Source: Sinorhizobium saheli (GTDB taxonomy: Bacteria > Pseudomonadota > Alphaproteobacteria > Rhizobiales > Rhizobiaceae). From it: a stretch of 64,000 nucleotides of DNA. The notes under the pieces were generated by a model that searched no databases, was not told the DNA's origin, and saw only the letters and a program-made list of their open reading frames with translations. This document shows positions 36,326 to 48,033 of this stretch, one piece after another. The stretch covers positions 1 to 64,000 of the forward strand of contig NZ_LNQB01000082.1 of the NCBI RefSeq assembly GCF_001651875.1. Reading direction: 5' to 3'. The position numbers and the translations under genes were made by a program. How positions within the stretch are numbered: position 1 is the first letter of the stretch; every line of letters begins with the position of its first letter.

Positions 36326-36556
36326 GGGCCGCGCCCTTCCGGCCGAATCGTCAAAGAAGTATGCTTAAGTCATTGATTCGTGACGCTGGTGCGGACCTTT
36401 GAGCGTCGCGGATGCGGATGTCTTGTCGGAAAGCGGCAAACAGACGGAGACAGACCGGGGATGCAATCGGAACCGACGCAAACCCTTCCGGGGGTTTTCG
36501 GTGCATGGCGACGCGAGGTCGGCGGCAATTTCCGGACGAACGGGGACAGCGGCGCC

Positions 36557-39040
36557 ATGAAAGCACAACGATCGATTTTCTTTCGCAAAGGACGAGCGGC
36601 CGCGACGCTGTTGCGGCGCCTCCTCGCCGGCACGGTGATCTTCGCGGCCACCGACGCCGCCGCGCAAGCGACCGCACCGGTCGCCAGGGCCATATTCGGC
36701 TCCTCCGAGGTCGTGACCTTCTCGGTCCTGATCGGCGTCATTTCCGCCGCCATGATCTCGGCGATCTGGCTCATCCGGCAGCGCGGCAACATCGAAGCGG
36801 AGAACCGCGAGCTGCGCACCGAACTGGCGGATGCGAACCAGCGGATTTCCCGCTTCCAGGCGCTCATCGCCGACAAGAACCGCCGTATCGTCATCTGGGA
36901 CGGGCTGGCGGAACGCCCGGAATTTCTCGGCCAGCTCCCCATCGAAACCGGCGCGCCGCAGAACGACCGCGACTTTCTCGCCTTCGGCCGCTGGATCAAG
37001 GCGCAATCGGCAGGCGAGCTCGAAAAGGCGATCGAGATGCTGCGGGCGCAGGCGCAGAGCTTCGACCTGGTGCTCGAAACCCAGCGCAACGAGGTGCTGG
37101 AGGCCCAGGGCCGGGTTTCCGGCGGCCGGGCCTTCGTGCGCTTCATCGCCCTCAACAATCTGAGGGCCGAGCTTGCGGAGCTGAAGCTCGGGCGCGATCG
37201 GCTGCACGCATCGCTCTCGACGTTGCGCACGCTTCTCGACGAGATCGATCTGCCCGTCTGGCAGCGCGGCACCGACGGCAGGCTCGAATGGGTCAACGCG
37301 GCCTATGCCGATGCCGTTGAGGCGCAGAGCGCCAATGCGAGCGTCGCCGAGGGGCGCGAGCTCCTGTCCACCGCCGCGCGCGAAAAGATCCGCGCCGTCT
37401 CGACCTTCGAGGCGCCCTACCGCGACAAGGTCTCGACCGTGGTCAAGGGCAACCGGACGTTCTTCGATGTCGTCGACGCCCGCGGTCCGGCCGGTTCCGC
37501 CGGCATCGCCATCGACGTTTCCGGCATCGAGGCCGTGCGCGAGGAACTGGTGCGGACGCTGAAGAGCCACGCCGAAACGCTCGAGCACCTGGCGACGCCG
37601 GTGGCGATCTTCGACGGCGACCAGCGGCTGCAGTTCTACAACCAGGCCTTCCAGCGGCTCTGGGACCTCGACATGGGCTTCCTGGAACGCAAGCCCGGCA
37701 ACGGCGAGGTGCTCGATCGCCTGCGCGCCGGCGGCAAGCTGCCGGAGCAGCTCAACTGGAAGCAATGGAAGGCGAACGCGCTTTCCGTCTACCAGGCGCT
37801 CGACACCCAATCCGACCTCTGGCACCTGCCGAACGGCCAGACGCTGCGCGTCTTCGCCACGGCGCGGCCGCAGGGCGGCGCGACCTGGGTCTTCGAGAAC
37901 CTGACCGAGAAGGTCGATCTCGAAACCCGCTACAACACCCTCGTCCAGGTCCAGGGCGAGACCATCGATCACCTCGCCGAAGGCGTCGCCGTCTTCGGGC
38001 CCGACGGCCGCATCCGGCTGTCGAACCCGGCCTTCCGGGCGATCTGGGGCATCAGCGAGGCGGAGGCGAAGCCCGGCACCCATATCCGCGCGGTCGAGCA
38101 GGCGTGCCTCGCCTCCTATGACCAGCCGGACGGCTGGAAGCGCTTCGCCCACATCATCACCAGCTTCGACGACGAGCGGCCGTCGAGCCGCGGCATCCTG
38201 GAGCTGCGCACCGGCCTGATCCTCGATTATGCGGTGATCCCGCTGCCCAACGCCCAGACGATGCTGACCTTCGTCAACATCACCGACAGCGTGCGCGTCG
38301 AGCGGGCGCTGACCGAGAAGAACGAGGCGCTGCGCAAGGCCGATGCACTGAAGAACGATTTCGTCCATCATGTTTCCTACGAGCTGCGCTCGCCGCTGAC
38401 GAACATCATCGGCTTCGCCGATCTCTTGAAGACGCCGGCCTTCGGCGAGCTCAACGCCCGCCAGGCGGAATATGTCGACCACATCGCCACCTCTTCCTCG
38501 CTGCTCCTGACGATCGTCAACGACATCCTCGATCTCGCGACGGTCGACGCCGGCATCGTCGAGCTCGACATGGCGGAGGTGAACCTCATCGACCTCCTCG
38601 ACGACGTGGCGCAGCAGATGGCCGAGCGGCTGATCGAGAGCGGCGCGACGCTGCGGATCGACGCTCCCGACAATCTCGGCCGCATCGTCGCGGACCAGCA
38701 GCGGCTCAAGCAGATCTTCATTAAGCTTCTGACCAACGCCGCCAATTTCGCGCCGGACGGCAGCACGATCGACCTCAAGTGCCGGCGCGAGGGCGGCGAT
38801 TTCCTCTTCTCCGTCACCGATACCGGCCCGGGCATCCCGCAGGACGTGCTGAACACCGTGTTCAACCGCTTCGAAAGCTACGGCCAGAGCGGCGGCGCCG
38901 GCCTCGGCCTGTCGATCGTCGAGAGCTTCGTCAGCCTGCACCACGGCACCGTCTCGATCCGCAGCAAGGAGGGCGAGGGCACGGAGGTCACCTGCCGCAT
39001 CCCCTCCGCCGAAATGCCGAAGATCATTGCGGCGGAATAG
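36557..39040 (+). CDS. divL: DivL-type cell-cycle kinase with Tyr in place of the H-box His
   Basis: With the ATG at 36557 the protein has 827 residues: a signal-like N-terminus, a membrane segment (VVTFSVLIGVISAAMISAIW), a coiled coil, several PAS-like regions and a kinase core. The H-box reads FVHHVSYELRSPLTNIIGFA, with Tyr608 where a kinase has His; N, G1 and G2 boxes are intact (LTNAANFAPDG, DTGPGIP, GLGLSIV). This Tyr is the mark of DivL, which binds phosphorylated-state DivK and modulates CckA and so CtrA in Caulobacter and Sinorhizobium. An upstream ATG (36461) would add 32 residues. The tsaE fusion gene begins at the next base. Confidence 0.88.
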   Translation: MKAQRSIFFRKGRAAATLLRRLLAGTVIFAATDAAAQATAPVARAIFGSSEVVTFSVLIGVISAAMISAIWLIRQRGNIEAENRELRTELADANQRISRFQALIADKNRRIVIWDGLAERPEFLGQLPIETGAPQNDRDFLAFGRWIKAQSAGELEKAIEMLRAQAQSFDLVLETQRNEVLEAQGRVSGGRAFVRFIALNNLRAELAELKLGRDRLHASLSTLRTLLDEIDLPVWQRGTDGRLEWVNAAYADAVEAQSANASVAEGRELLSTAAREKIRAVSTFEAPYRDKVSTVVKGNRTFFDVVDARGPAGSAGIAIDVSGIEAVREELVRTLKSHAETLEHLATPVAIFDGDQRLQFYNQAFQRLWDLDMGFLERKPGNGEVLDRLRAGGKLPEQLNWKQWKANALSVYQALDTQSDLWHLPNGQTLRVFATARPQGGATWVFENLTEKVDLETRYNTLVQVQGETIDHLAEGVAVFGPDGRIRLSNPAFRAIWGISEAEAKPGTHIRAVEQACLASYDQPDGWKRFAHIITSFDDERPSSRGILELRTGLILDYAVIPLPNAQTMLTFVNITDSVRVERALTEKNEALRKADALKNDFVHHVSYELRSPLTNIIGFADLLKTPAFGELNARQAEYVDHIATSSSLLLTIVNDILDLATVDAGIVELDMAEVNLIDLLDDVAQQMAERLIESGATLRIDAPDNLGRIVADQQRLKQIFIKLLTNAANFAPDGSTIDLKCRREGGDFLFSVTDTGPGIPQDVLNTVFNRFESYGQSGGAGLGLSIVESFVSLHHGTVSIRSKEGEGTEVTCRIPSAEMPKIIAAE

Positions 39041-40555
39041 ATGAAATCCCTTGAGCTCCTCCTTGAAGACGAGGCCGCCACCATCGCGCTTGGCGAGGAC
39101 CTGGCGCTGGCGCTGAAAGCCGGCGACTGCGTCGCGCTTTCGGGCGATCTCGGCGCCGGCAAGTCGACCTTCGCCCGCGCCTTCTTGAGGGCGATGGCCG
39201 ACGACGAGACGCTCGAAGTGCCGAGCCCCACCTTCACGCTGGTGCAAAGCTACGAATTGCGCATTCCGGTCGCGCATTTCGATCTCTATCGGCTCGCGGA
39301 CGCATCGGAGCTCTACGAGCTCGGCTTCGACGAGGCGCTCTCGGACGGCATCTGCCTCGTCGAATGGCCGGAGAAGGCGGAGGAGGCGCTGCCCGCCGAC
39401 CGCATCACGCTCACCTTCACGCACGTGGGAGAAGGGCGCCGGCTCATGATCACCGCCCCCGACGCGGCCTTCGGGCGGATCAGCCGATCACTCGCCATCC
39501 GCAGCTTCCTCGCGCAGGCCGGACTTGCCGGCGCCCGCCGCCGGCACTTGAGCGGCGACGCCTCGATCCGGGCCTATGAGCGCATCCGCGCGGGCGAAGG
39601 CGAGCCGGCGAAGATCCTGATGGATGCGCCGAAGCACACGCCGGGCCCGATCCTTCAGGACGGCAAATACTACCAGCAGCTCGCCCATATCGCCGAGGAC
39701 GTGATCCCGTTCGTCGCCGTCTCGGAACTCCTGCGCAAGCGCGGCTTCGCCGCACCGGCGATCTACGCCCGCGACCTCGACCAGGGCCTGCTCATGATCG
39801 AGGACCTGGGTTCGGAAGGCATCCTCGATCCGCAGGGCCGGCCGATCGCGGAGCGCTATGTCGAGAGCGCGCGGCTGCTCGCCCGCCTCCACAGCGAACC
39901 GGCGGAGCGCGACATCCCGGTCGCCGAAGGCCTCGTCCACCACATCCCCGATTTCGACCGGACGGCGATCAAGATCGAAACGAGCCTGCTCATCGACTGG
40001 TACCTGCCGTGGAAACGCGGGCGGCCCGCCTCGGACGCGGAGCGGGACGCCTATTTCGCCATTTGGGACCGGCTCGTCGATATTCTCGCAGCGGCGGAGA
40101 AGAACCTGGTGCTGCGCGACTACCATTCCCCGAACATCCTGTGGCGGGCCGACCGCTCCGGCCTCGACCGGATCGGCATCATCGATTTCCAGGATGCGAT
40201 GATCGGCCCGGCGGCCTACGACCTTGCCGCGCTCGTGCAGGACGCACGCGCGACCATCGAGCCGGATCTCGCCCGGCGGATGATGGAGGCCTACATTGCC
40301 GAGCGCAGGGCCGTCCGCCCCTTCGACGAGGCGGCTTTCTCACGCGACTGGCACATCATGGCGGCGCAGCGCAACTGCAAGCTCGCCGGCATCTGGGTGC
40401 GGCTCAAGGAGCGCGACGGCAAGCCGGGCTATATGAAGCACATGCCGCGCACTTTCGCCTATCTGGAGCGCGCGCTTTCCCATGACGTGCTGACACCCTT
40501 GCGCGATTGGTGCATTAAGGCTGGAATCCTTGCCAGCGAATCAGCAACCTCATAG
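39041..40555 (+). CDS. tsaE: fusion of TsaE ATPase and AmgK-like sugar phosphotransferase
   Basis: A 504-residue fusion. Residues 1-150 are TsaE, the ATPase of the t6A37 tRNA modification complex, with Walker A SGDLGAGKSTFARAF and SPTFTLVQSYE. From about residue 165 an aminoglycoside-phosphotransferase-type kinase follows, with LVLRDYHSPNILW (catalytic loop) and IGIIDFQDAMIGP (metal-binding Asp). The kinase half resembles AmgK, the anomeric MurNAc/GlcNAc kinase of peptidoglycan recycling, and a MurU-like gene starts 6 bases downstream. The fusion joins tRNA modification to cell-wall recycling and is known in Rhizobiales. It directly follows divL. Confidence 0.9.
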   Translation: MKSLELLLEDEAATIALGEDLALALKAGDCVALSGDLGAGKSTFARAFLRAMADDETLEVPSPTFTLVQSYELRIPVAHFDLYRLADASELYELGFDEALSDGICLVEWPEKAEEALPADRITLTFTHVGEGRRLMITAPDAAFGRISRSLAIRSFLAQAGLAGARRRHLSGDASIRAYERIRAGEGEPAKILMDAPKHTPGPILQDGKYYQQLAHIAEDVIPFVAVSELLRKRGFAAPAIYARDLDQGLLMIEDLGSEGILDPQGRPIAERYVESARLLARLHSEPAERDIPVAEGLVHHIPDFDRTAIKIETSLLIDWYLPWKRGRPASDAERDAYFAIWDRLVDILAAAEKNLVLRDYHSPNILWRADRSGLDRIGIIDFQDAMIGPAAYDLAALVQDARATIEPDLARRMMEAYIAERRAVRPFDEAAFSRDWHIMAAQRNCKLAGIWVRLKERDGKPGYMKHMPRTFAYLERALSHDVLTPLRDWCIKAGILASESATS

Positions 40556-40561
40556 GAAATC

Positions 40562-41293
40562 ATGCCCATCACCAATGCCATGGTGCTTGCGGCCGGACTG
40601 GGCACCCGCCTGCGGCCGATCACCAACACGCTGCCGAAGCCGCTCGTGAGCATCGCCGGCAAGCCGATGATCGACTATGTGCTGGATCTGCTTGCCGCCG
40701 CCGGCGTGACGAAGGCCGCTGTGAACGTGCACCATTTCGCCGACCAGATGGAGGCCTATCTCAGCCGCCGCGAGGCGCCGCGCATCGTCTTTTCCGACGA
40801 ACGGGACGCGCTGATGAATTCCGGCGGCGGGCTGGCAAAGGGATTGAAACTGCTCGATGACGGGCCGGTACTCGTCATGAACGCCGATCTCTTCTGGGTC
40901 GGCGAGAAGGCGGAAGAGCCGAGCAACCTGCAGAGGCTCGCCGATTATTTCGACCCGGAGCGCATGGACATGGCGCTGCTCTGCGTCCGGCTCGAGGATA
41001 CGACCGGCCACAACGGCAAGAAGGATTTTTCGCTCTCCGAAGACGGCCGGTTGAGGCGCTATGAGGAAGGCATGGACAATCCCATCGTCTATGCCGGCGC
41101 CACCGCGCTTCACTCGCGGCTCTTTGCCGATGCGCCCGGCGACGCGTTCAACCTCAACATCTATTTCGATCGGGCGATCGCCAGGGGACGCCTGTTCGGC
41201 CTGATGCTCGACGGCCACTGGATGACGGTCGGCACGCCCGAAGCGATCCCCGAGGCCGAGGCCGTCATCCGGCGATTCTGCCCGGGAGGATGA
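40562..41293 (+). CDS. murU: nucleotidyltransferase, MurU-like (MurNAc-1-phosphate uridylyltransferase)
   Basis: A 243-residue sugar-nucleotidyltransferase. The N-terminal signature MVLAAGLGTRLRPITNTLPK and KPMIDYVLDLLAAAGV are clear, with a metal-binding VLVMNADLFW. Placed directly after an AmgK-like kinase, it fits MurU, which turns MurNAc-1-phosphate into UDP-MurNAc in the recycling route that bypasses de novo synthesis. Related enzymes acting on mannose-1-P or glucose-1-P cannot be excluded from sequence alone. The GTG start of addB follows 1 base after its stop. Confidence 0.8.
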   Translation: MPITNAMVLAAGLGTRLRPITNTLPKPLVSIAGKPMIDYVLDLLAAAGVTKAAVNVHHFADQMEAYLSRREAPRIVFSDERDALMNSGGGLAKGLKLLDDGPVLVMNADLFWVGEKAEEPSNLQRLADYFDPERMDMALLCVRLEDTTGHNGKKDFSLSEDGRLRRYEEGMDNPIVYAGATALHSRLFADAPGDAFNLNIYFDRAIARGRLFGLMLDGHWMTVGTPEAIPEAEAVIRRFCPGG

Positions 41294-41294
41294 C

Positions 41295-44200
41295 GTGACC
41301 CGACGAAGCGCGAACGTCTTTACGGTTCCCGCTGGCCTGCCCTTCCTGAAGACGCTGGCCGAGAGCCTCCTGAGCGGCGCGCTGACGTCGAAATTCCGCT
41401 ATGACCCGGCCGATCCCCTGGCGCTCGCCGGGGTGACGATCTTCGTGCCGACGCGCCGCTCGGCGCGCGTGCTGCGCTCGGAATTCGTCGACCTGCTCGG
41501 CGGTCGCTCCGCCATCCTGCCGATGATCCGCGCGCTCGGCGAGACCGATGACGACAGCGGGTTCTTCGACGCGGAAGTGCCGGCGATCCTCGATCTCGCG
41601 CCGCCCCTTTCCGGCACCGCCCGCCTCATCGAGCTCGGCCGCCTCATCCTCGCCTGGCGCAATCGCCTGCCGCAGGTGGTTCTCGACATCCATGCCGAAA
41701 GCCCGCTGATCGCACCGGCGAGCCCCGCCGACGCCATCTGGCTGGCGCGCAATCTCGCCGAGCTCATCGACGCGATCGAGACCGAGGAACTCGCCTGGGA
41801 TCAGCTCGACGGGCTCGACGGCGGCGAGCATGCGCTGTGGTGGCAGCTGACGCTCGCCTTCCTGAAGATCGCCCGGACCTATTGGCCGGAGCGGCTCGCC
41901 GAACTGAAGCGCTCCTCGCCGGCACGCCACCGCAATGCGGTGCTCAAGGCCGAAACCCAGCGCATTGCCGCCGGCAAGGTCGAGGGGCCGATCATCATCG
42001 CCGGCTCGACCGGCTCCATTCCGGCGACCGCGGCGCTGATCGCGGCGGTCAAGGCGCTGCCGAACGGCACCATCGTGCTCCCCGGCCTCGACCAGGCGAT
42101 GAGCGAGGCCGAATGGCAGCTGATCGTCGGCGACACGGCGCCGGGCTCGACCGCGAGGGATCCGGCCAGCCGAACGCATCCGCAATATGGCTTCCATCGC
42201 CTCATGAAGCGCATGGGCATCGACCGCAGCGACGTGCCGGTGCTCGGCCGCGTCGACGACGACCTCGACTATCGCAGCGCCGTGCTCTCGCGGGCGCTGC
42301 TGCCGGCGAAGGCGACGGACAGCTGGACGCAGGCGCGCGCTGAGTTCGACCCGGAGAAGCTCGCTTCCGCCTTCGCCGACGTGGCGCTGATCGAGGCAGC
42401 GAACGAGCGTGAGGAGGCAACGGCGGTCGCCATTGCGCTTCGGCTGGCCCTCGAGGGCGACGAGGAAAGCCAGGCGGCGCTGATCACGCCGGATCGCGGC
42501 CTTGCGCGCCGCGTCGGGGCCGAGCTCGCCCGCTTCGGCATCGAGGCCGACGATTCGGCCGGCATCCCGCTCTCGGCGACCCCCGCCGGCGCCCTCACCC
42601 GCCTGCTTCTGGAAGCCGCCTTGCGGCCGAACGACCCGGTGCCCCTGGTCGCCCTTCTCAAGCATCCGCTCGCGCGCTTCGGGGCGGCGCCCGAGGATGC
42701 GCGTCACGCCGCGGATGCGCTCGAACTCGTGGCGCTGCGCGGCGGCACCGACGTCGCCGACATTGCCGCGCTCGAAACCGTGCTCGACAAGGCGCTTGCC
42801 AAGCGGAACACCGACCGGCATCCGCCGCCATGGCTGAGCGCCGTCGGCATCGACGACATTGCGCTCGCGCGGTCGCTTGCCCGGCGCATCTCGGCCGCCA
42901 TGGAGCCTTTGACCGGCGCGCTCGTGCCGGGCGCCGTAAGCGGCCATGATCGCTCGCTGGTGCTGACGCTCGCCGATTGGGCCGAGCGAACGGGCAGGGC
43001 GCTGGAGGCGGTCGCCGTCGACGAGCGCGGCAGCCTCGGCGAGCTCTGGGCTTCGGAAGCCGGCGAAACACTGGCGACGCTGCTGACCGGCATCATCGAG
43101 ACCGAAGGGCAGATGGAGGCAGACGGGCCGCAATGGTGCGACATCGTCGAGGCGCTTGCCGCGAGCGAGGCGGTCAAGCCGCGATCGATGCGCCATCCCC
43201 GCGTCTTCATCTTCGGGGCGCTCGAATCGCGCCTGCAAAGCGTCGACCTCGTCGTGCTCGGCGGCATGAACGAAGGCACCTGGCCGGGCCAGACCTCGAA
43301 CGATCCGCTCCTGTCGCGGACGATGAAGGCGGGGGTCGGCCTCGAGCCGCCGGAGCGGCGCATCGGCCAGCTCGCGCACGACTTCCAGATGGCCTGCGGC
43401 ACGCGCCGGCTGATCTTTTCGCGCTCGATGCGCCAGGGATCGGCACCGACCGTCGCGTCCCGATGGCTGCAGCGCCTGCAGGCGCTCGGTGGCGAGAAGC
43501 TCAACGAGCAGCTCAAGGCGAATGGCGCCAGCTATCTCCATTGGATGCGCATGCTCGACGAAGGCGACCGCCAGCCGCTCGCCGAGCGGCCGGAGCCGAG
43601 GCCGCCGGCCGAGCTGCAGCCGCGCAAATATTCCTTCAGCGAGGTGACGCGGCTCCGGCGCGACCCCTATGCCATCTATGCGCGGCGGATCCTCCGGCTT
43701 CAACCGCTCGAGCCGTTCAACCGCGACCCGGATGCGGCCGAGCGCGGCCTGCTCTACCACCGGATCGTCGATCGCTTCGTGAAGGGCGGCTTCGATCCCG
43801 CCACGCGCGAGGGCGAAGCCGCGATGATGCGGCTCACCGACGAGGCCTTCGACGAGGAGAAGCTGCCCGCCCATATCGACACCATCTGGCGCCCTCGCTT
43901 CCACGCGGTCGGCAGGGCCTTCCTCGAATGGGAACGTGATCGCCGCCACGGCATCGCCAGGTCGTTCACCGAGGTCCCGGCGGCGATGGAGCTCGGCCTT
44001 GCCGACATCCGGCTGACCGGCATCGCCGATCGGCTCGACCGGCTCACGGACGGCACAGTCGACATCATCGACTACAAGACCGGATCGAGCCCCTCGCCCA
44101 AGGAGGCCCGCGCGCTGCTCGACCCGCAGCTCGCCCTCGAGGCGGCCGCACTCAAGGCCGGCGCCTTCCGCGCCGTCGGCCCCGCCAGGCCGCACTCGCT

Positions 44201-44474
44201 GCGCTACGTCCGGCTGAAGCCCGGCAGCCGTTTCGCCGTCGACACGGTCGACAACGAGGGCGGCCGCGCCAGGGACACGAAATCCACCGATCAGCTGGCG
44301 GAGGCATCGCTCAGCGAACTCAGGAAACTGCTCGCCGCCCTGATGAGCGGCCGGCACGGCTTCGCCTCGCGCCTGATCGTCCAGAAGGAACGGGACTACG
44401 GAGGGGAATACGACCATCTGGCGCGCGTCGCCGAATGGGCGACCGCCGACAGCGAGGACGACGATGAGGAGTGA
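41295..44474 (+). CDS. addB: double-strand break repair protein AddB
   Basis: A 1059-residue AddB of the alphaproteobacterial type: a degenerate helicase-like N-terminal part (VFTVPAGLPFLKTLAESLL, VTIFVPTRRSARVLRSEF) and a C-terminal RecB-like nuclease with GIADRLDR and VDIIDYKTG as catalytic motif. With AddA it processes double-strand ends to Chi-like sites for RecA loading. The GTG start at 41295 lies 1 base after murU. The stop overlaps the start of addA. Confidence 0.94.
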   Translation: MTRRSANVFTVPAGLPFLKTLAESLLSGALTSKFRYDPADPLALAGVTIFVPTRRSARVLRSEFVDLLGGRSAILPMIRALGETDDDSGFFDAEVPAILDLAPPLSGTARLIELGRLILAWRNRLPQVVLDIHAESPLIAPASPADAIWLARNLAELIDAIETEELAWDQLDGLDGGEHALWWQLTLAFLKIARTYWPERLAELKRSSPARHRNAVLKAETQRIAAGKVEGPIIIAGSTGSIPATAALIAAVKALPNGTIVLPGLDQAMSEAEWQLIVGDTAPGSTARDPASRTHPQYGFHRLMKRMGIDRSDVPVLGRVDDDLDYRSAVLSRALLPAKATDSWTQARAEFDPEKLASAFADVALIEAANEREEATAVAIALRLALEGDEESQAALITPDRGLARRVGAELARFGIEADDSAGIPLSATPAGALTRLLLEAALRPNDPVPLVALLKHPLARFGAAPEDARHAADALELVALRGGTDVADIAALETVLDKALAKRNTDRHPPPWLSAVGIDDIALARSLARRISAAMEPLTGALVPGAVSGHDRSLVLTLADWAERTGRALEAVAVDERGSLGELWASEAGETLATLLTGIIETEGQMEADGPQWCDIVEALAASEAVKPRSMRHPRVFIFGALESRLQSVDLVVLGGMNEGTWPGQTSNDPLLSRTMKAGVGLEPPERRIGQLAHDFQMACGTRRLIFSRSMRQGSAPTVASRWLQRLQALGGEKLNEQLKANGASYLHWMRMLDEGDRQPLAERPEPRPPAELQPRKYSFSEVTRLRRDPYAIYARRILRLQPLEPFNRDPDAAERGLLYHRIVDRFVKGGFDPATREGEAAMMRLTDEAFDEEKLPAHIDTIWRPRFHAVGRAFLEWERDRRHGIARSFTEVPAAMELGLADIRLTGIADRLDRLTDGTVDIIDYKTGSSPSPKEARALLDPQLALEAAALKAGAFRAVGPARPHSLRYVRLKPGSRFAVDTVDNEGGRARDTKSTDQLAEASLSELRKLLAALMSGRHGFASRLIVQKERDYGGEYDHLARVAEWATADSEDDDEE

Positions 44475-47400
44475 TGCATCCGGGCCGGAGCAGCGGACGC
44501 CGCAGGCGTGGCTCGACTGGACGACCGAGCGGCAGGCGCTCGCCTCCGACCCGGCGCGTTCCGCCTGGGTTTCCGCCAATGCCGGGTCCGGCAAGACGCA
44601 TGTGCTCACCCAACGCGTCATCCGCCTCCTGCTCGCCGGCTGCCGGCCCTCCGCCATCCTCTGCCTGACCTATACGAAGGCGGCCGCTTCGGAAATGTCG
44701 AACCGGGTGTTCGAGCGGCTTGCCGAATGGGCCACGCTCGACGACGCGGCACTCGAAAGGCGCATCGAGGCGATCGAGGGCAAGCGCCCGTCGCTCGCAA
44801 AGATAAAGGAGGCGCGGCGGCTGTTCGCACGCGCCCTCGAAACGCCGGGCGGGCTGAAGATCCAGACGATCCACGCCTTCTGCGAGGCACTGCTGCACCA
44901 GTTCCCGCTGGAGGCCAACGTCGCCGGGCACTTCTCCGTCCTCGACGACCGGGCCGCCGCGGTGCTGCTCGCCGACGCGCGCCGCGCGCTCCTGACGGCG
45001 ACGGCCGCGGCCGACGACCGGGAACTTGCCGGCGCCTTCGCCACCGTCCTCGACCTTGCCGACGATACCGGCCTCGAAAAGCTGCTTGCGGCGATCGTCG
45101 CCGAGCGGGCGCCGATCCAGGCTTTCCTCGACCGGGTCGCAGGACGCGGCGGCCTCGAGCGGCATCTCGGCGCGGCCCTCGGCCTGAAGCCCGGCGAGAC
45201 GGCGGACACCGTGATGGCGGGCGCCTGGCCGCTCGCCGGCCTCAACGGAGCGGCGCTCGATCGCTATATCGACATTGCCCTGCGCCTCGGCGGCGCCAAG
45301 GCCTCCGCCTTTGCCGAGGGCCTGCGAAAGCTCCGGGCGATCGAGGACACGGCGGAGCGCTACCGCGGATTGGTCGAGCTCTTCTACAACGGCGGCGGCA
45401 AGCCGAAAGCGGAATCCACCTTTCTCAACGCGGCGATGCGGCGCGAGGCGCCGGAGCTCGCGATCCTCGTCGAAGAGGCGCGCGACCACATGGTCGCCTG
45501 CGCCGATCGCCTCAGCATCGTGCGGATGTATGACGCGACCCGTGCCGCCCTCATCCTCGCCGAGCGGCTCAATCGCGACTACGAGGCGCTCAAGAAGGCC
45601 CGCAGCCAGCTCGACTTCGAGGACCTGATCACCCGCACGGCGGCGCTGCTCTCGCGCAGCGACGTCGGCGCCTGGGTGCATTACAAGCTCGACCAGGGGA
45701 TCGATCACATCCTCGTCGACGAGGCGCAGGATACGAGCCCCGCGCAGTGGACGATCATCCAGTCGCTGGCGGCCGATTTCTTCGCCGGCGAAACGGCGCG
45801 GGCGGACGACCGGACGATCTTTGCCGTCGGCGACGAGAAGCAGTCGATCTATTCCTTTCAAGGGGCGCGGCCGGAGCGTTTCGCCCGGGAGAGCGTGGTG
45901 ACGGAGCGGCGGGTGATTGCCGGCCAGAAGCATTTCAGTTCCATCCGCCTGCAGCTTTCCTTCCGCTCGACCGTCGACGTGCTTTCCGCCGTCGACACCG
46001 TCTTTGCCAATCCGGGCAATGCGAGGGGCCTCAGCGCCGCGAACGAGGCGATCGTGCATGCCTCGAACCGGATCGGCCACCCGGGCGCCGTCGACCTGTG
46101 GGATGTGATCGCGCCCGAGCCGACGGTTTCGGAAGAAGAGTGGACGGCGCCCTTCGACGCGACACCCGAGCGCGCGCCGGTCAACGTCCTCGCCCGGCGC
46201 ATCGCCGCGGTTCTCGAAGACTGGATCGGCCGCGAAACGGTGATCGAAAAGGGCGTCCGCCGCCCGATGCGTCCGGGCGACGTGATCGTGCTCGTGCGCA
46301 AGCGCGACGCCTTCGTCAACGCGCTGACGCGCGCGCTGAAGCGCCGCGGCAATATCCCGGTCGCCGGCGCCGACCGGCTGGTGCTGACGAGCCACATCGC
46401 CGTGCAGGACCTGATGGCGCTCGGCCGTTTCGTGCTTCTGCCCGAGGACGACCTGTCGCTTGCCGCACTCCTGAAGAGCCCGCTCTTCAATCTTGGCGAA
46501 GACGACGTCTTCGAGCTTGCCGCGCGACGGGCGGAGGGCGAAAGCCTCTGGCGGCGCCTGCAGCAGGCGGGCGCGGAGGAGATGAGCCGCCATCACGGGG
46601 TGGTGCAACGGCTTCGCGCCTATTCGACGCTCGCCCATGACCTGCTGCCGCATGATTTCTATGCCCGCATCCTCGGCGCCCACGGGGGCCGGCGCGCCTT
46701 CCTCGCACGGCTCGGCAGCGAGGTCAGCGACATCCTCGACGAATTCCTGACTTTCGCGCTCGACCACGAGAGAAGCGGCCTGCCGGGCCTGCAGGCCTTC
46801 GTTTCGACGCTGGAGATCGAGGCTCCGACGGTCAAGCGCGAACAGGACAAGGAGCGCGACGAGGTGCGCGTCATGACGGTGCATGCGGCCAAGGGCCTCG
46901 AGGCGCCGGTCGTCTTCCTCGTCGATGGCGGCGGCGAGGCATTCGTCCGCCAGCAGGTCTCGGACCTGCGCTTTCTGGAAAGGCAGCAGCCGGATCGCTC
47001 CGTCGTCTCCGTTCCGGTCTGGCGCGCACCGGGCTCGGCCCCGAACTCGCTGATCGATGCCGACAATGCGCGGCTGAAGCGACTGGCCGAGGAGGAATAT
47101 CGCCGGCTCCTCTATGTCGGCATGACCCGCGCGGCCGACCGCCTGATCGTCTGCGGCTATCGCGGCCAGCGGCAGAACGTCGACACCTGGCACGCCATGG
47201 TTCAGGGCACCCTTGCGCAGGACCTCAAGGGCCGCGGCGCGCCGACGACCTTCCGTGCCGGCGGCGAGGAATGGGCAGGGCTTGCATGGCGGGAAACGCC
47301 GGTGGCGCGCGACCTGCCGGCACGGGAAGGCGGCCTCGCCGGTCCGCGAGCGGCACCGGCCGGCCTGCCGCGGGCGCTCTTCACCCCCCTGCCGGCGCCG

Positions 47401-48033
47401 CGGCGGCTGCCGCGGCCGCTGACGCCATCCGGCACCACTGTCGCGATCGACGACCCGGACGGCGAATCGATCATCGGATCGGCTCTTTTTGCGGAGAAGG
47501 CGGCGCCCAAATTCTCGATGCTGCGCGGCGCGATCCTCCACCGCCTGCTGCAAGTGCTGCCGGCGCTGGAAAGCGCCGAGCGCCAGGCCGCGGCCGAGCG
47601 CTACCTGGAGCGTTCGGTGCCGCGCTGGCCGGCGGCGGAGCGCCGGGCGCTTTCGGATGCGGTCCTCAATGTGCTCGACCACCCGGAGCTTACGGCGCTC
47701 TTCGGCGAGCAAAGCCGGGCGGAAGTCTCGGTGATGGGCACGCTCAAGCTCGGCGGCCGCGAATTCGCGGTCTCGGGCCGGATCGACCGGCTGGCCGTCT
47801 CCGGCAACACCGTGACGATCGCCGACTACAAGACCAACCGCCAGGTGCCCGCCTCGTCCGACGAGATCGCGCCGGTCTATCGGAACCAGCTCGCCATCTA
47901 TCGCGAATTGTTGAAACCACTCTATCCCGGCAAGCGTTTCCGCTGCGTGCTGATCTTCACCGAGGGCCCGGCCATCCGGGTGCTGCCCGAGCCCATGCTC
48001 GACAGGAGCCTTGAAGAGCTCTCGACAAAGTGA
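44464..48033 (+). CDS. addA: double-strand break repair helicase AddA
   Basis: A 1189-residue UvrD-family helicase-nuclease. Walker [21 protein letters not shown] sits at about residues 36-55; DEAQDTSP is motif [17 protein letters not shown] motif [20 protein letters not shown] motif V and [13 protein letters not shown] motif VI. The C-terminal nuclease shows GRIDRL and [11 protein letters not shown]. It is the AddB partner. It starts inside the last codons of addB and ends 85 bases before trxA. Confidence 0.95.

Follow-up and report, generated by a model that had tools for sequence, protein, structure and literature searches.

A TsaE domain joined end to end to an AmgK-type kinase in Sinorhizobium saheli and in most sampled genomes of the Rhizobiales

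A single gene of Sinorhizobium saheli encodes a 504-residue protein in which TsaE, the ATPase of tRNA t6A formation, is fused to an AmgK-like kinase of peptidoglycan recycling. The gene lies in the window, that is, the whole 64,000-nucleotide stretch of DNA analysed here. A sequence-only reading of the window had proposed this fusion, and the proposal holds: TsaE and AmgK models are the best matches to the two halves of one open reading frame, and both halves share one open frame in 139 of 150 genomes sampled from the order Rhizobiales. We consider it very likely that this is an ordinary bifunctional fusion that arose by end-to-end merging of neighbouring genes, with each half doing its usual job, and that it was favoured by co-expression. 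Across most of the order, TsaE, a member of a network reported to be essential, is made as one chain with a recycling kinase absent from some relatives. A literature search returned no paper on a TsaE–AmgK fusion among the matches listed; the present analysis adds the scale of the fusion, its repeated origin, a junction predicted to share a helix, and the existence of kinase-less relatives. NCBI, we believe, names such fused proteins as bifunctional.

Organization of the locus

The features of the locus are as follows.

36380..39040, + strand: PAS/histidine-kinase-like gene, probable divL, with Tyr at the phospho-acceptor position (HHVSYELRSPL)
39041..40555, + strand: fused gene, 504 aa, TsaE plus AmgK-type kinase, ATG start (ORF, Pfam, NCBIfam)
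39041..39460, + strand: TsaE half, aa 1–140, Walker A GDLGAGKST with K41, plus D81 and E108
39461..39517, + strand: predicted joining helix, aa 141–159, the TsaE C-terminal helix continuing as the AmgK first helix (AlphaFold)
39485..40552, + strand: AmgK-type kinase half, aa ~149–504, with D360, N365 and D382 (Pfam, NCBIfam, structure)
40562..41293, + strand: MurU-type nucleotidyltransferase gene, 243 aa, ATG start (NF045697, PDB 4y7t, 8hhd)
41295..44474, + strand: addB, GTG start one base past the murU-type stop (TIGR02786, 1230 bits)
44464..48033, + strand: addA (TIGR02784, 1569 bits)

The ATG of the fused gene at 39041 abuts the stop codon of the upstream gene (TAG, 39038–39040). Its own stop codon (TAG, 40553–40555) is followed by GAAATC and then by the murU-type ATG at 40562, so that the 6-base spacer and the MurU-like identity claimed from the letters alone are both confirmed, the coordinates exactly and the identity at family level. 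We take DivL to be characterized by a Tyr at the position normally occupied by the phospho-accepting His, which matches the gene at 36380–39040. This probable divL lies directly 5′ of the fusion with zero spacer, and a cell-cycle regulator thus belongs to the same cluster. At the other end of the region analysed, positions 1–62 of the window match 16S rRNA on the minus strand, clipped by the window edge.

The TsaE half

Pfam places TsaE at residues 9–131 (E 1e-37; 129 bits vs a cut-off of 26.6). The NCBIfam model TIGR00150 scores 111 bits, above its cut-off of 60, and a second, narrower TsaE model, NF007931, reaches 110 bits, below its cut-off of 246. This is the one TsaE match in the S. saheli genome, where PF00814, the TsaD family, is matched twice, at 317 and 105 bits. 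The shorter match (105 bits) is presumably TsaB, as TsaB and TsaD are paralogues. Residues K41, D81 and E108, which we take to be the catalytic ATPase-site residues of TsaE (P-loop Lys, Asp and Glu), occur in every row, fused (119 of 119) or unfused (51 of 51); the same is true of D360, N365 and D382 in the kinase half, which we assume from the APH/choline-kinase fold to be catalytic and metal positions. These counts refer to rows and not to genomes: three fused and seven unfused repeats were removed, and at least G167 still contributes two rows. Both halves of the fused protein look active from these residues.

Stand-alone TsaE proteins of known structure (Bacillus subtilis YdiB, 5np9; Haemophilus influenzae HI0065, 1htw; Thermotoga maritima, 6n9a) show 34–36% identity and Z scores of 20–22, the predicted model matching 5np9 with Z 21.6 over 148 residues, and seven solved TsaE sequences match this half by sequence. 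Unlike the fused protein, the stand-alone proteins carry no kinase domain. One TsaE entry in the PDB bears the label 'cell wall biosynthesis', which, as a guess, the fusion may help explain.

The TsaD–TsaB–TsaE network is reported to be essential in bacteria (PMC10792529); as to essentiality by domain, the available part of PMC8770471 says nothing on TsaE. Essentiality calls made for whole genes may conflate two functions at a fused locus, where insertions that disrupt the second half may show up as a recycling phenotype.

The kinase half

Within the second half, Pfam detects APH at residues 215–428 (E 2e-20). The best NCBIfam model is that of AmgK, NF045698 (residues 154–491, 219 bits, E 1e-64), with a score below the cut-off of 500, a value passed by only 2 of 289 class genomes and, among 14 control genomes, only by Caulobacter. 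A second AmgK model scores 115 bits and the best kinase model of another family 22 bits. The sequence-only reading had named two findings that together would speak against it, and one of them, some other phosphotransferase family matching better, did not turn up: no such family comes close, AmgK leading the non-AmgK kinases by about 200 bits.

The nearest solved structure to the kinase half is 3csv, a putative aminoglycoside phosphotransferase of Silicibacter sp. TM1040 (Z 34.2, 310 residues, 33% identity); its function is given by that putative name only, and its chain of 322 residues lacks a TsaE part. In three genomes (G427, G401 and G511) an extra kinase match, at 35–39% identity and without a TsaE part, lies elsewhere in the genome.

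A continuous helix is predicted across the junction

The AlphaFold model of the full protein (59 rows) has a mean pLDDT of 95.9 and a pTM of 0.92, and in it helix H141–159 runs unbroken across the join (block pLDDT 98). The alignments of seven TsaE chains cover model residues 1 to 152–160 and that of 3csv begins at residue 148, which suggests that in the model the last helix of the TsaE parent and the first of the kinase parent fall on the same residues. TsaE of T. maritima and of Escherichia coli is likewise described with a C-terminal helix (PMC11648230). Many of 18 unfused TsaE tails compared carry W..RL or a close variant, R...FL is the usual start of unfused kinases, and fused proteins have a W..RL-like tail and then the kinase start at once. 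Read this way, the junction is a natural TsaE tail joined to a natural AmgK start. The gap between the domain matches hardly varies: it spans 21–27 bases in order loci (31 of 31) and 18–27 bases in named loci (80 of 80, the best 80 of 585 confirmed). A domain count of 59 of 59 rests on loci chosen as fused and is not used as evidence.

A junction of this kind could mean that the halves influence each other, for example if substrate binding by the kinase altered the docking of TsaE on TsaB–TsaD, so that t6A output followed wall recycling or the reverse. tRNA modification and wall recycling would then be directly linked. The continuous helix in a high-confidence model, the near-fixed gap and retention in most of the order are all points in its favour. 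Nevertheless, we regard such a functional fusion as unlikely, given that fused forms arose from neighbouring genes more than once, that relatives with separate genes manage without it, and that seven genomes of the order carry TsaE but no kinase (see below). A more specific proposal, in which the shared helix would make TsaE and kinase one rigid machine and recycled wall sugar on the kinase half would alter the TsaE reset of the t6A enzyme, seems to us quite improbable; if true, it would tie translation quality to wall turnover across a whole bacterial order. Two of these observations do count against co-expression as the best explanation: the predicted rigid junction exceeds the needs of loose tethering, and near order-wide retention is something that a purely neutral event need not show.

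Spread of the fusion within the order

The 150 order genomes were evenly drawn, and 148 gave a match; no match was found in G469 or in G524, which is 61% complete. Among the 139 genomes with an uninterrupted frame across both halves, 133 gave a single match across nearly the whole protein, four gave a match in two pieces (G400, G449, G456 and G504, the last assigned by ORF), and in two the match spanned the join and stopped further on (G393, G408). The remaining matches comprise seven genomes with TsaE only and two in which the contig ends within the locus (G402, G416). All 80 named loci examined are fused; as the best 80 of 585 confirmed, they represent the closest kin, and their names include Rhizobium, Mesorhizobium, Brucella, Bartonella, Bradyrhizobium, Labrys, Bosea and Aurantimonas. 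The nearest named relative among the matches listed is Ensifer aridi, at 85% identity. Because genomes outside the order commonly have the two as separate neighbouring genes, a sequencing error or assembly slip that joins two genes might be suspected; conservation of the open frame across the join, in the 139 sampled genomes as in these 80 loci, refutes this, and we practically dismiss it.

The fusion arose more than once from neighbouring genes

The class sample comprised 86 genomes, of which 81 gave a match, 62 with both halves and 19 with TsaE only. The halves are fused in seven of the 62 (G000, G018, G019, G044, G058, G070, G083) and adjacent in 45. Adjacent genes are mostly out of frame (41 of 62, with −65 to 448 bases between matches); in four, checked by ORF, they share a frame that a stop codon interrupts between the two (G002, G037, G050, G054). 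The halves lie apart in the other 10, in some perhaps only because a contig is broken. In a hand-chosen set of larger loci with both halves, tsaE, amgK and murU are consecutive in 36 of 36. In 28 of these addB follows, and in 27 a DivL-like gene immediately precedes the three; other loci of this set are without addB or the DivL-like gene, or their sequence ends. The full cluster is an old alphaproteobacterial one, ahcY–divL–tsaE–amgK–murU–addB–addA, whose outer members vary.

We placed 90 rows with TsaE and kinase in a quick tree without bootstrap, with 36 of its 86 inner branches open and with some rows that are long or of odd composition. The 33 fused rows of the order form one clade (SH-aLRT 100), and the tree requires seven changes between the fused and unfused states, three of them forced by supported branches. 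A single origin of all fused rows was rejected, as forcing all 41 into one clade cost 175 log units (p-AU 0.0003). The clearest case is a pair of the same genus, G279 (fused) and G065 (unfused), which are sisters at 100. These data argue that the fusion arose more than once in the class, and by the tree it arose once within the order and stayed. One genome, G184, contains both a fused (L062) and an unfused (L080) tsaE–amgK copy; at a stated contamination of 5%, the assembly may mix two organisms.

TsaE without the kinase in some relatives

The seven kinase-less genomes of the order belong to three families. In two genomes of family f179 (G438 and G507) the cluster reads ahcY–divL–tsaE–murU–addB–addA, amgK alone being missing, and in another (G389) tsaE lies beside divL, with murU–addB–addA on another contig. 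The fourth f179 genome (G474) and two genomes of f222 (G433, G502) are without amgK and murU, with tsaE still before addB; in G391 (f181), also without both genes, tsaE lies 3′ of a DivL-like gene. K41, D81 and E108 of TsaE are kept in all seven, and TsaE without the kinase is thus a naturally occurring state. No relocated kinase was found with profile A2, which a distant one could escape, in any of eight genomes (these seven plus G469). A suspected broken MurU in G389 was rejected, the alignment putting the stop near the natural end.

In a tree of other genes, f179 nests among fused lineages, a placement that depends on one branch at 95 resting on one 37%-filled row (L226), under a weak root (31). 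Families f222 and f181 group with unfused lineages, and on this ground kinase loss in all kinase-less families was rejected. Absence of the kinase is probably a secondary loss in f179, and f222 and f181 may never have had the fusion. Three of the four f179 genomes (L218 in G438, L219 in G507, L220/L221 in G389) have AnmK and an uninterrupted MurU with no detectable AmgK; in this family an unrelated kinase may fill the AmgK step, or MurU may have a new substrate.

The sequence-only reading had left open whether the fusion simply preserves co-expression or lets one domain influence the other. Unfused neighbours in the same order of genes, repeated origin and kinase-less TsaE together make co-expression the better fit: the fusion would mostly keep both products made together from one start site, and this suffices as an explanation.

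Salvage partners and the link to fosfomycin

The best NCBIfam model for the 243-residue gene is MurU, NF045697, at 230 bits, below its cut-off of 370, and among PDB sequences it matches 4y7t (1e-33) and 8hhd, named MurU (3e-29). The same S. saheli genome has an AnmK match and a NagZ match above cut-off (222.7 vs 207). Its best MupP score is 101 bits vs a cut-off of 359, from a protein that scores higher as phosphoglycolate phosphatase. At the threshold used, MurU is present in 142 of the 150 order genomes, the copy in G398 being cut by a contig end, and AnmK in 136, a few as fragments. All four sampled genomes of family f204 (G415, G456, G490, G520) have the fusion and MurU with no AnmK match; here the supply of MurNAc to the kinase may bypass the anhydro step.

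If the halves keep their usual roles, TsaE would cycle on and off TsaB–TsaD with ATP during t6A formation, the kinase would phosphorylate MurNAc, perhaps also GlcNAc, at C1, and the MurU product would make UDP-MurNAc, bypassing the fosfomycin target MurA. The missed AmgK and MurU cut-offs, the MupP scores, f204 without AnmK and the MurU of f179 without the kinase count against this explanation. Some of these points would suit a kinase acting on a sugar other than MurNAc, namely the scores under both equivalog cut-offs and the lineages that have kinase and MurU with no AnmK match, as would the presence among the fold matches of an N-acetylhexosamine 1-phosphate kinase (4ocj, Z 18.8). We hold another sugar to be very unlikely, since AmgK leads all non-AmgK kinase models, murU is directly next, and published work in Agrobacterium tumefaciens points to AmgK/MurU salvage (PMC9790009). 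Moreover, MurNAc-linked muropeptides, observed in the cytoplasm of that organism, would need no AnmK (PMC9790009).

An effect of AmgK and MurU on fosfomycin sensitivity, also suggested in the sequence-only reading, finds support in print. A fosfomycin Tn-seq screen in A. tumefaciens points to AmgK (Atu0026) and MurU (Atu0025) as the likely MurNAc salvage route (PMC9790009). By locus number these genes adjoin DivL, Atu0027 (PMC3577659), just as the genes in the window adjoin the probable divL. The available text of PMC9790009 does not mention a TsaE part in Atu0026, and its fused status is drawn from gene order and relatives: Atu0027 and Atu0026 are consecutive, leaving no room for a separate tsaE, so that Atu0026 is very probably a fused gene. 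Insertions in Atu0026, if recovered without drug, should then sit in the kinase half, because of the reported essentiality of the TsaD–TsaB–TsaE network.

Loss of amgK in Caulobacter is reported to raise fosfomycin sensitivity (PMC13046382, PMC11980594) and MurNAc levels (PMC13046382). There, AmgK (CCNA_03649) and MurU (CCNA_03650), a pair numbered CC_3535/CC_3536 in PMC11980594, are encoded by adjacent genes, as here; unlike the fused protein, CCNA_03649 is listed as AmgK alone in the accessible part of PMC13046382. Two sampled genomes, G063 and G278, lie above the Caulobacter-type AmgK cut-off, and in G063 tsaE is a separate neighbour. Four genomes of family f177 (G387, G436, G472, G505), of only 1.3–1.4 Mb, have the fusion, MurU and AnmK, with the fusion and MurU at just 29–34% identity.
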